The notes under the pieces were generated by a model. The model ran no database searches. It was given only the letters and a program-made list of their open reading frames with translations, and had not been told where the DNA came from. 64,000 nucleotides of DNA from Halosimplex salinum (GTDB lineage Archaea > Halobacteriota > Halobacteria > Halobacteriales > Haloarculaceae): assembly GCF_003730195.1 (NCBI RefSeq), contig NZ_QWGG01000001.1:496001-560000 (forward strand). The letters run 5' to 3'. The translations under genes and the position numbers were made by a program. Below are positions 13,177 through 17,205 of the stretch, piece after piece; position 1 is the first letter of the stretch; each line of letters opens with the position of its first letter.

Positions 13177-14616
13177 ATGTACGATTCAGCGAAATATCTC
13201 ATCCACGCGGACATCCGAACCAGCGGGGTGGTCGAACGGAGTGACGTCGTCGGCGCCGTCTTCGGACAGACGGAGGGGCTGCTCGGCGACGAACTCGACC
13301 TCCGGGACCTCCAGGAGTCGGGGAAACTCGGCCGCATCGACGTGACCGTCGAGTCCGAGCGCGGGAGTTCCTTCGGCGAGGTGACCATCGCCAGCGGGCT
13401 CGACCGCGTCCAGACGGCGATCCTCGCGGCCGCCCTGGAGAGCATCGAACGCGTCGGCCCGTCGACGGCCGACGTCGAAGTACGCGACATCGAGGACGTC
13501 CGCTCGGCCAAGCGCCGGCAGGTCGTCGAGCGTGCGAAGGACCTCCTCGCGGAGTTCGACGCGACGCGCATGTCGAGCGAGGACCTCGTCGAGGAGGTCA
13601 GACGGAGCGTTCGCGTCGAGGACATCACCGAGTTCCACGGCCTGCCCGCCGGCCCGCGCGTCGCCGACAGCGACGCCATCATCGTCGTCGAGGGCCGCGC
13701 CGACGTGCTGACGCTCCTCCGCTACGGCATCAAGAACGCCGTCGCCGTCGAGGGGACGGACGTGCCCGACGCCGTCGCCGACCTGACCGCGGACCGCACC
13801 GTGACGGCCTTCCTCGACGGCGACCGCGGCGGCGACCTCATCCTCAAGGAGCTGTCGCAGGTCGGCGACGTGGACTACGTCGCGCTCGCACCGACCGACC
13901 GCTCTGTCGAGGACCTCTCCCGGAACGAGGTCATGGACGCCCTCCGCGACAAGGTGCCCTACGAGACGGTCTCGGCCGCCGACGCGGACGCCGACGACAC
14001 GCACGGACTGGCCGCGACCGACGGGAGCACCCAGCCCTCCCCGCCCGACGCCGACGCCGGCACGGTCCGACCGGACGAACCGACCGGCCCGGACTCGACC
14101 GACGCCGTCGACGCCCCGGCCGACACGGCCACCGAACCGACGACAGCGTCCGCCGACGCGGCCGCCGCGTCGAGCGCGTCCAGCGACACCGCGACCACGG
14201 TGAACGAGTTCACCGACGCAGGGCCCGAAGCCTCCGTCGACACCGCGGACGCCGCGGACCCTCCTGACGGCGGGGCAACGGCCGCCGCGGAACCGTCTGA
14301 CGCCGGGGCCGCGGCCGCCGCTCCGCCGGACACGCTCCCCAGCCACGTCGAGGCGGTCGTCGGCGAGTCGACCGGACAGGTGCGCCTCCTCGACGCGGAG
14401 TACGACACCGTCGCCGAGGGGCCTGCCGGAGACGCGTTCGACCTCGTCGAGACGGCGGAACTGGTGCCGTCGACGGTCGTCCTGGACGGCGAGGTGTCCC
14501 AGCGGATCCTCGACGTGGCCGCCCAGCGCGGCGTCGACCTCGTCGTCGCCCGCTCCGAAGGCCAGTACGTCAAACAGCCCGTGACCCCTCGCGTTCTCAC
14601 CGCAGACGAGGTCTGA
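13177..14616 (+). CDS. dnaG: archaeal DnaG-type primase
   Basis: This 479-residue protein has the archaeal DnaG N-terminus (DSAKYLIHADIRTSGVVERSDVVGA) split here as DSAKYLIHADI, a TOPRIM domain with Glu172 in IIVVEGRADV and Asp214/Asp216 in DGDRGGD, and a C-terminal domain. Archaeal DnaG has primase activity and also associates with the exosome. Residues of about 266-385 form a low-complexity Ala/Asp/Thr/Pro linker that is unusually long. The ATG follows a structured leader rather than a leaderless start. It converges with the GNAT gene at 14638. Confidence 0.95.
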   Translation: MYDSAKYLIHADIRTSGVVERSDVVGAVFGQTEGLLGDELDLRDLQESGKLGRIDVTVESERGSSFGEVTIASGLDRVQTAILAAALESIERVGPSTADVEVRDIEDVRSAKRRQVVERAKDLLAEFDATRMSSEDLVEEVRRSVRVEDITEFHGLPAGPRVADSDAIIVVEGRADVLTLLRYGIKNAVAVEGTDVPDAVADLTADRTVTAFLDGDRGGDLILKELSQVGDVDYVALAPTDRSVEDLSRNEVMDALRDKVPYETVSAADADADDTHGLAATDGSTQPSPPDADAGTVRPDEPTGPDSTDAVDAPADTATEPTTASADAAAASSASSDTATTVNEFTDAGPEASVDTADAADPPDGGATAAAEPSDAGAAAAAPPDTLPSHVEAVVGESTGQVRLLDAEYDTVAEGPAGDAFDLVETAELVPSTVVLDGEVSQRILDVAAQRGVDLVVARSEGQYVKQPVTPRVLTADEV

Positions 14617-14637: not shown

Positions 14638-15099
14638 CTACTCCGGGAGTTCGCGAACGAGCAGCAGTCCGTCACCGCTCTCGTAGTGGTCGGGCAGGCG
14701 CTCGCGGCGTTCGAAGCCGCGCTCCTCGTAGAACTCGCGCGCCCGGTCGTCCACTTCCCGGACGGTGACGCGGAGGTCGTCGACGCCGATCTCGCGACAG
14801 CGCTCCGTGAGGGCGTCGAGGAGGGCCGAGCCGTGCCCCTCACCCTGGGAATCCGGCGCGACGGCGAGTTCGGCGAGATAACAGGCTTCGTCGTCGCCGT
14901 CGGTCACCGCGAGCGCGTAGCCGACGGGGGTGTCGGCGGCGTCGACCGCTCCGGTCCGCTCCGTCTCTGCAACTAGCAGGATCGGCGGTCCGTCGGGCGC
15001 GACGGCGAGCAGTTCGTCCCACTGCTCGGCGAGGACGGTCGTCTGGATCGCGCGGAGCGCGGGCAGGTCGACGGTCTCGCCGGGACGAACGCGCGTCAT
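14638..15099 (-). CDS. GNAT family N-acetyltransferase
   Basis: This 153-residue protein shows the GNAT fold: ELAVAPDSQGEGHGSALLDAL is the acetyl-CoA pyrophosphate loop (Q/R-x-x-G-x-G/A, here QGEGHG), followed by a REFYEERGFERRERL segment near the end. It transfers an acetyl group from acetyl-CoA to an amine, possibly a protein N-terminus or small molecule. Its ATG overlaps the stop of the DUF92 gene by four bases (ATGA), so it is the second gene of that operon. Substrate is unknown. Confidence 0.88.
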   Translation of the reverse strand: MTRVRPGETVDLPALRAIQTTVLAEQWDELLAVAPDGPPILLVAETERTGAVDAADTPVGYALAVTDGDDEACYLAELAVAPDSQGEGHGSALLDALTERCREIGVDDLRVTVREVDDRAREFYEERGFERRERLPDHYESGDGLLLVRELPE

Positions 15100-16442
15100 A
15101 CGGCGACGATACCGAGGGCGACCGCCGCCAGGGCCGCGGCGACACCGGCCGCCAGCGTCGCGAAGAAGTTGACGCCCTCGTTCTCGAGGACGAGTCCCTC
15201 GACGGTCGCGCCCAGCAGGCTGTCGACCGTCATGCCGACGACGCCGCCGAAGACGACGATGCCGGCGCCGACGGTCCCGACAGTCTCGAAGGTCGTCACG
15301 GCGATGCCGGCGATCAGGAAGGCGCCGGTGAGTCCGGCGAGTTCGCCCTGCCAGGTGACGGCGCCGTCGGTCCCCGGTTCGACCCGCTCGAAGGTGGTTA
15401 TCAGTCGCGGTTCGTCGAACACGCCGCCGATCTCGCTGGAGAGCGTGTCGCTCATCGCCGCGGCGATAGAGCCGGCGAACGCGAACAGGAACAGTTCGGG
15501 CGGCAGTTGCGTCAGCGTCGGACTCGCCGCGGCGCCGAGCACCGCGAACAGCCCGACCAGCGAGTTGGCGAGGACGTTCCCGCTCCCGCGGGCGCCGTCG
15601 TTCTCTTCGGCGATCCCGCGCTGTTCTTTCTCCTCGTACCGGAACTTCGTCGAGAGGCCCCCGACCCCGAAGAAGGTCAACAGCAGGAGGAACCAGCCGA
15701 AGTCGCCGAGCACGATCGTCTGGAGTCCGAGGAAGACACCGGTGATCATCCCCGGGAGCGACGCCGTCTCCAGCGCGTAGGCGAGATACCCCAGCAGGAC
15801 CGTCACGGCGAGCGCGATGGCGACGCTCGAGGTATCGATCTCCAGCGGGAGGTCGGCGAACAGCCAGAGCAGGAGGCCGATGGAGATCATCACGAGCGGG
15901 TCGTCTCGCTCGAAGAGGACGGCCCGGAGGAGCGCGCCGAGCAGCGCGCCGCTGGCGGCGAGGAACGCGGCGAGCGGCCAGTGCATCGACGTCCCGATCA
16001 GGAGCGCCGCCGCGTACTGGCCGGCGCTCCCGGCGAGAAAGCCCGCGACGACGAACCCGGCGGTCGCGAGGATGGGTTCGTCGCGGACGGAGCGGACGAG
16101 GTGCCCGCCGAGGTTCCCCCACGAGAGCAGGAGGACGGTACCGACGAACACCGGAAGTGGCATCGCGAAGCGGACGGCGAGGAGTGCGAGCGCCGCGGCG
16201 GCGAGCGCGAAGCCCGCGAGGCCGTACAGTCGCCCGTCACGGCGGTCGCCGGGGCGGGCGAAGAGTTCGAAGAGCGGGCCCTCGTCGACGTAGTAGAGCG
16301 CGAGGGCCGCGACTGCGAGAAACGGGCCGGGCGCGGCGACGGTCGCGAGCGCCCGACTCGTGGTGCTGGCTATCGGTGGGACGGCCAGCGCGAGCGTCCC
16401 GACGAGGGCGAACGCGCCCGCACGTCGGACTGTCGTTGTCAC
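15096..16442 (-). CDS. DUF92 integral membrane protein (polyprenyl-phosphate metabolism candidate)
   Basis: This 448-residue protein has ten or more hydrophobic segments. Conserved DUF92 wording includes SDTLSSEIG, TWQGELAGLTGA and GGVVGMTVDSLLGATVEG. Plant VTE6, a phytyl-phosphate kinase, belongs to DUF92, so a role in isoprenoid phosphate handling is reasonable. The N-terminal half is longer than in minimal DUF92 proteins and forms an extra membrane bundle. The start is a GTG at 16442, backed by a TATA-like GGTAAGTAG about 26 bases upstream. It is divergent from the cis-prenyltransferase-like gene and overlaps the GNAT gene. Confidence 0.85.
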   Translation of the reverse strand: MTTTVRRAGAFALVGTLALAVPPIASTTSRALATVAAPGPFLAVAALALYYVDEGPLFELFARPGDRRDGRLYGLAGFALAAAALALLAVRFAMPLPVFVGTVLLLSWGNLGGHLVRSVRDEPILATAGFVVAGFLAGSAGQYAAALLIGTSMHWPLAAFLAASGALLGALLRAVLFERDDPLVMISIGLLLWLFADLPLEIDTSSVAIALAVTVLLGYLAYALETASLPGMITGVFLGLQTIVLGDFGWFLLLLTFFGVGGLSTKFRYEEKEQRGIAEENDGARGSGNVLANSLVGLFAVLGAAASPTLTQLPPELFLFAFAGSIAAAMSDTLSSEIGGVFDEPRLITTFERVEPGTDGAVTWQGELAGLTGAFLIAGIAVTTFETVGTVGAGIVVFGGVVGMTVDSLLGATVEGLVLENEGVNFFATLAAGVAAALAAVALGIVAV

Positions 16443-16596
16443 GCTACTGTCGGTATCCCGCGGTGAGCTACTTACCGTTTCCGAACCCGCCCGACTGCTC
16501 CGTCGTGACGAGCGCCGCTTCGCCGCCGCTCGAAGTCGGCGTCGAACCGCCGTTGCCGAGCGTGAGTTTTAGGGCGAACCCCCCTGAAGCGAGTGC

Positions 16597-17205
16597 GTGG
16601 GACTGTACGACCGGTATCTCGCCCTCCGCCTGCGCTACAGTGACGCCGAGCTCCCCGAGACGGTCGCGGTCATCGTCACCGAACGCGACCTGCTGGAACA
16701 GGACGGCTACCGGACCCTGGAGCGGTTTTTCGACTGGGCCGTCGCGTTCGGCGCCGAGCGTATCGTCGTCTACGTGAGCGTCCTCGACACCGAGGTCGTC
16801 GACCGGATCCGCCGCGAACTCGCCGAGGTGGACGCCCCCCGAGAGATAGCCGTCCGCGGGCCGGAGGACGACGAACAGGCCGACGCGCCCATCCTCGTCG
16901 GTATCGGCATGGGCGGCAAACACGAGTTCGCCACCGCCGTCCAGGGGCTCGCCGAGGAGGTCGAGGCCGGTGACCTCGAACCCGCCGACATCGACGAGGG
17001 CGCCATCGAGCGCGAACTCGTCTTCCCGGTCCAGCCCGACCTCGTCATCAAGACCGGCGCCGAGCGGCTCTCCGACTTCATGATCTGGCAGTCCGTCTAC
17101 TCCGAGCTGTACTTCACGGACGTGAACTGGCGGGACTTCCGCCGGCGCGACTACCTGCGCGCATTGCGGGATTACCAGAACCGTCAGCGGCGGTTCGGGC
17201 GCTGA
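16597..17205 (+). CDS. cis-prenyltransferase (UppS) homologue lacking the catalytic Asp motif
   Basis: This 202-residue protein keeps the C-terminal signature of undecaprenyl diphosphate synthases: DLVIKTGAERLSDFMIWQ, YSELYFTDVNW and RQRRFG. The N-terminal catalytic block, normally IIMDGNGRWA, reads VIVTERDLLE, so the essential Asp and the phosphate-binding residues are gone, and the NYGGR element is GMGGK. Length is shorter than the usual 240-310 residues. It may be a non-catalytic subunit, as NgBR/Nus1 is to the eukaryotic enzyme. The GTG start has a GAGTTTTAGG box 29 bases upstream. It is divergent from DUF92. Confidence 0.82.
   Translation: MGLYDRYLALRLRYSDAELPETVAVIVTERDLLEQDGYRTLERFFDWAVAFGAERIVVYVSVLDTEVVDRIRRELAEVDAPREIAVRGPEDDEQADAPILVGIGMGGKHEFATAVQGLAEEVEAGDLEPADIDEGAIERELVFPVQPDLVIKTGAERLSDFMIWQSVYSELYFTDVNWRDFRRRDYLRALRDYQNRQRRFGR

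Follow-up and report, generated by a model that had tools for sequence, protein, structure and literature searches.

A haloarchaeal cis-prenyltransferase homologue without its catalytic Asp is probably the NgBR-like subunit of a two-part enzyme and lies beside a conserved DUF92 gene

What does a cis-prenyltransferase homologue do once its catalytic Asp has been lost? The question is raised by one gene in a window of 64,000 nucleotides from Halosimplex salinum (the whole stretch of DNA analysed here, G000:C11:496001-560000), which a first-pass annotation had read as a possible archaeal counterpart of the non-catalytic subunit NgBR/Nus1. The GTG start of this gene agrees with orthologues beginning MGLYDRYL (Table 1), and we refer to its product as CPTL. 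The protein has a significant PF01255 match confined to residues 97-201 (94 bits, E 1.3e-26; Pfam cut-off 27), and its structure model matches those of UppS and DHDDS at Z ~15, which together place it in the cis-prenyltransferase family. The UppS-type C-terminal signature that had been noticed in it is indeed kept, in the span of the PF01255 match and with RFG falling in the RxG columns. CPTL scores under all equivalog cut-offs of the NCBIfam UppS models, and with TERDL and no FSxEN in the aligned columns it is not a catalytic UppS or isoprenyl transferase by its motifs. The family has 40 invariant columns among 46 orthologues, and its N-terminal half is far more divergent than its C-terminal half. 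In Halorubrum-type loci (L087, L147, L148 and others), CPTL carries an insert of ~10 to 20 residues ahead of the glycine motif and its gene is no longer near UppS.

Table 1 Features of the CPTL locus. Positions are those of the window unless a contig is named.
Feature	Position	Strand	Basis
DUF92 integral membrane protein (448 aa), a candidate VTE6-family prenyl/polyprenyl phosphate kinase	15096..16442	-	PF01940 at residues 213-432
Divergent intergenic region of 154 bp, DUF92 to CPTL gene	16443..16596	.	Coordinates; arrangement kept in 45/49 loci
CPTL, probable non-catalytic cis-prenyltransferase subunit (NgBR-like), 202 aa, GTG start	16597..17205	+	ORF, Pfam, orthologue starts, alignment
TERDL (residues 28-32) where catalytic enzymes have DGNRR; Thr replaces the Asp that binds Mg/FPP	16678..16692	+	Alignment columns
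GMGGK (residues 104-108) replacing NYGGR	16906..16920	+	Alignment; YGGR columns hold MGGK; G104, G106 and G107 invariant
C-terminal RxG motif (R199-F200-G201), absent from the genomic UppS	17191..17199	+	R and G in 104/104 orthologues
Intact UppS, 310 residues	G000:C11:490307-491239 (= L001:1414-2346)	+	DGNRR, FSTEN and YGGR present

The active-site motifs were read from the columns of a 242-sequence alignment. Plain regular expressions gave four false DGxxR matches in CPTL and several RxG matches in partner tails, hence all motif counts given here are counts of alignment columns. These columns bear out both the loss of the catalytic Asp, with Thr in its place in the window protein, and the replacement of the DGNGR and NYGGR blocks by TERDL and GMGGK, as had been claimed at first pass. 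Across the CPTL orthologues (n=104), the catalytic column holds T in 78, S in 12, A in 7, G in 2 and D in 2; the two proteins with Asp both belong to family f13, and their block is hard to align. In DHDDS this Asp coordinates Mg, and the diphosphate of FPP is bound by R37 and R38 (PMC7573591). The window CPTL has Asp and Leu in place of the two FPP-binding arginines: Asp (D31, +3 from the catalytic position) fills the R37 column (DHDDS numbering) in 102/104 orthologues, and Leu fills the R38 column in 94/104. FSxEN is missing from CPTL, and the region between the FSxEN and YGGR positions is ~44 residues long, compared with 77 in catalytic enzymes.

Acids beside the lost Asp are common in CPTL, as E29 (+1 from the catalytic position) occurs in 86/104 orthologues in addition to the near-universal D31, and the protein could in principle still catalyse prenyl transfer with an atypical active site, in which Glu29 or Asp31 serves for the catalytic Asp. 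We consider this very improbable. D31 occupies the place of the FPP-binding Arg, meaning that the charge is reversed there, and the substitutions D34E and D34N each cost DHDDS more than tenfold in activity (PMC7573591). The missing FSxEN and shortened tunnel region also speak against catalysis. Judged from the alignment, E29 and D31 do not look like a rescue of the lost Asp, and the objection that another acid might compensate for it is countered, at the level of sequence, by the position of D31 in the R37 column.

The first-pass annotation had proposed a search for a second, intact UppS copy, and we find one: the genome holds exactly two PF01255 genes, and the other encodes a complete UppS. 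It sits ~4.8 kb before the window start; the distance to the CPTL gene is 21.4 kb, with both genes on the same strand and non-adjacent. The UppS C-terminus reads YEHREESWRKTRARR, with no RxG. Across 42 haloarchaeal UppS sequences there is no variation in DGNRR, in YGGR or at the positions (R202, R208, S210) that align with the IPP site of the human enzyme. We see that the two protein types divide the motifs reciprocally. Partner-type proteins (n=100) have DGNRR in all 98 that cover that block and an R in the R column of RxG in only six, whereas the CPTL type (n=104) has RxG throughout. Single-copy enzymes keep both DGNRR and RxG (25/25 archaeal and 11/11 bacterial). In the same alignment, human DHDDS has DGNRR and lacks RxG, and human NgBR has TEVEQ together with RLG; both human sequences were verified against PDB chains. 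In human DHDDS/NgBR, the NgBR tail with RxG extends over the interface to the DHDDS active site and contributes to both substrate sites (PMC7573591). CPTL thus shares the marks of an NgBR/Nus1-type subunit, having lost the catalytic Asp and kept the C-terminal RxG, in a genome that encodes a catalytic partner without RxG. Some genomes carry a third, divergent full-length PF01255 gene (G002:C1:478925-479599; G135, with four copies; f10 genomes), which perhaps resembles the short-chain MM_0014 enzyme.

The reciprocal loss also bears on the idea that CPTL is a regulator or scaffold of UppS, for instance a membrane or substrate-channelling partner, which leaves the active site as it is and uses RxG for folding. 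The diverged N-terminal half could carry another role of this kind. However, few elements of CPTL are conserved as strictly as RxG, which is the very motif missing from the partner, and a scaffold needs no such trade, which makes this reading unlikely.

Structure and profile comparisons connect CPTL to NUS1 itself. The single-chain CPTL model (mean pLDDT 83) matches NUS1 (6z1n_B) with Z 14.4 over 180 residues, and the CPTL profile reaches human NUS1 at full length (residues 16-202, E 7e-6), so both fold and full-length similarity agree with the NgBR/Nus1-type assignment. Model confidence is lowest in two segments, residues 166-169 and the RxG tail (198-202), which would fit parts of the protein that are ordered only in a dimer.

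CPTL was found in 116/116 haloarchaeal genomes from 46 genera, and a full UppS in 115/116, the exception being an assembly of ~120 contigs. Convergent pairs of CPTL and UppS genes lie within 6.5 kb of each other in 87/116 haloarchaeal genomes, and within 600 bp in 53. DUF92 lies divergently beside CPTL in 45 of 49 loci, where the usual order has DnaG on the far side of DUF92 and UppS convergent with CPTL. The DnaG-type Toprim protein (window 13177-14616, +) adjoins DUF92/CPTL in most haloarchaeal loci and has no obvious carrier-lipid link. In a sample of 148 genomes from the phylum, PF01255 occurs in 142, and a CPTL-type match is present in all but two of them (140/142, made up of 137 plus three more divergent ones); those two genomes are 87-89% complete. 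The divergent DUF92-CPTL pair occurs in 67 genomes of this sample and the convergent CPTL-UppS pair in 52, each across many families. A neighbourhood survey of UppS-like genes with DUF92 had been suggested at first pass, and it shows the divergent DUF92-CPTL position to be conserved well beyond haloarchaea. The haloarchaeal pair genes are often near each other, unlike those of family f11 of the phylum, where CPTL and UppS are apart. In five genomes sampled from outside these groups, those of Thermoplasmatota, Methanosphaera and an unclassified archaeon, one enzyme alone is encoded and it matches the whole PF01255 profile. The loss of catalytic motifs is also what one would see in a decaying, functionless paralogue, but a gene present in all 116 haloarchaeal genomes, with its 40 invariant columns and a phylum-wide conserved order, leaves that explanation with a negligible chance.

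Taken together, the intact partner, the reciprocal DGNRR/RxG split, the profile and fold match to NUS1, the presence in 116/116 genomes and the frequent pairing with UppS bear out the original NgBR/Nus1-like reading. We regard the identity of CPTL as an NgBR/Nus1-like non-catalytic subunit as strongly supported, and the protein is very probably one half of a heteromeric cis-prenyltransferase that makes the glycosyl carrier lipid. From complementary motifs, co-occurrence, gene linkage and fold, we infer that CPTL pairs with the only full UppS-type enzyme of the genome through the conserved C-terminal dimer interface. As the motif partition suggests, its RxG tail would cross this interface into the UppS active site and complete the FPP and IPP diphosphate-binding sites that UppS cannot complete alone. 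UppS would contribute the catalytic Asp, the arginines, FSxEN and the chain tunnel. The product may be a medium-chain polyprenyl diphosphate, on the way to the archaeal dolichyl (glycosyl carrier) phosphate. Human DHDDS alone is weakly active, and UppS might likewise retain some activity in the absence of CPTL.

In a 79-sequence tree, the CPTL sequences all lie to the same side of a branch with SH-aLRT 100, and the partners likewise for a second branch with 88; this fits one event of duplication and splitting close to the base of the phylum. A clade uniting CPTL and partners was not rejected by the AU test (p 0.73). Neither was the grouping of NgBR with CPTL (p 0.70) nor that of DHDDS with the partners (p 0.59), and the NgBR branch is very long, such that these tests are compatible with either a common or a parallel origin of the eukaryotic and archaeal pairs. 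No Asgard locus turned up as a starting point for a further search. One contig labelled Nealsonbacteria (L171) carries an archaeal UppS close to the Haladaptatiplasma UppS in the tree, and is probably a binning contaminant.

The conserved DUF92 neighbour is a more open lead than the subunit itself. Its PF01940 match (199.8 bits, Pfam) establishes membership of DUF92, and its AlphaFold2 model has a pLDDT of 95. We take VTE6 to belong to the same family. VTE6 is the Arabidopsis phytyl-phosphate kinase (PMC10849223), and by analogy the neighbour may be a polyprenyl-phosphate kinase. According to a phylogenomic study (PMC5088576), the later reactions of archaeal Dol-P synthesis are unknown and most archaea have no homologue of dolichol kinase; the conserved neighbourhood makes DUF92 a candidate for these late steps. 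Tentatively, and with more doubt than confidence, we propose that the arrangement of DUF92 divergent from CPTL, with UppS convergent, is a carrier-lipid locus, in which DUF92 would be the missing archaeal prenyl/polyprenyl (phosphate) kinase, supplying or recycling the substrate for a heteromeric cis-prenyltransferase with a single origin close to the base of the phylum. Against a strict link of DUF92 to cis-prenyltransferases, five genomes without any cis-prenyltransferase match keep DUF92 (G122, G131, G140, G149 and G156, all of family f16; two are >90% complete), and DUF92 is also present in Synechococcus and Methanocaldococcus.

A fold search with the DUF92 model gave nothing significant, the CdsA match (4q2g, Z 5.1 over 124 residues) lying within the noise for helical proteins, and we found no literature on archaeal DUF92 function or assay in a search covering few subscription journals. 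The haloarchaeal protein (window 15096-16442, -) has an extra N-terminal membrane half of 210 residues without a Pfam match, and no dolichol-kinase type match was seen there in Pfam. An internal duplication of DUF92 was considered and is unsupported (profile comparison probability 0.2%). The N-terminal half of the Methanoperedens DUF92 proteins (L151, L154, L163) contains a TTFGDGxxDxI motif, which resembles the GDG motif of dolichol/phytol kinases; a profile search gave no match to such kinases.

The proposal that a haloarchaeal equivalent of NgBR/Nus1 would be new does not wholly stand where archaea in general are concerned. Passages in PMC8131916, citing Emi et al. 2019, describe the Methanosarcina mazei paralogues MM_0618 and MM_1083 as forming a heteromeric cis-prenyltransferase with C45-50 products, and a passage in PMC8904820, citing the same work, states that the archaeal enzyme needs two subunits, so this kind of enzyme is already known. 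No haloarchaeal cis-prenyltransferase pair was found in the literature searched, which included few subscription journals; nor did the universality in haloarchaea, the reach across the phylum, the RxG/DGN trade or the DUF92 linkage appear in those papers. Our data extend a single reported archaeal example to a phylum-wide rule, by which, in genomes of the phylum that encode a cis-prenyltransferase, the catalytic gene lost its RxG tail and a second gene supplies RxG. They also carry a warning for annotation: a haloarchaeal 'UppS' taken singly probably represents one half of the enzyme, and the second 'UppS' has no enzyme function by itself. The pairs are small and soluble, and could serve to study the activation of DHDDS by NgBR, where human defects cause disease; a genetic test is possible in the tractable Haloferax volcanii.

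One of the closest known systems is that of Methanosarcina, in which the genomes examined carry one catalytic gene and one RxG-bearing non-catalytic gene that can be aligned with the haloarchaeal pair; MM_0618 and MM_1083 are presumably orthologous to these genes, with one in each role. Homodimeric UppS of bacteria and archaea shares the C-terminal half, the dimer-interface sequence and RxG with the window protein, but holds both motifs in one gene, whereas the window protein is without the catalytic half. DHDDS/NgBR (Rer2/Nus1) resembles the haloarchaeal pair in having a DGNRR subunit without RxG and an RxG subunit with T-E at the catalytic Asp, on the same fold. It differs by the N-terminal membrane segment of NgBR and the C-terminal helix-turn-helix of DHDDS (PMC7573591); the 202-aa window protein has no such extension, and the product of the haloarchaeal pair is presumably shorter than that of DHDDS/NgBR.
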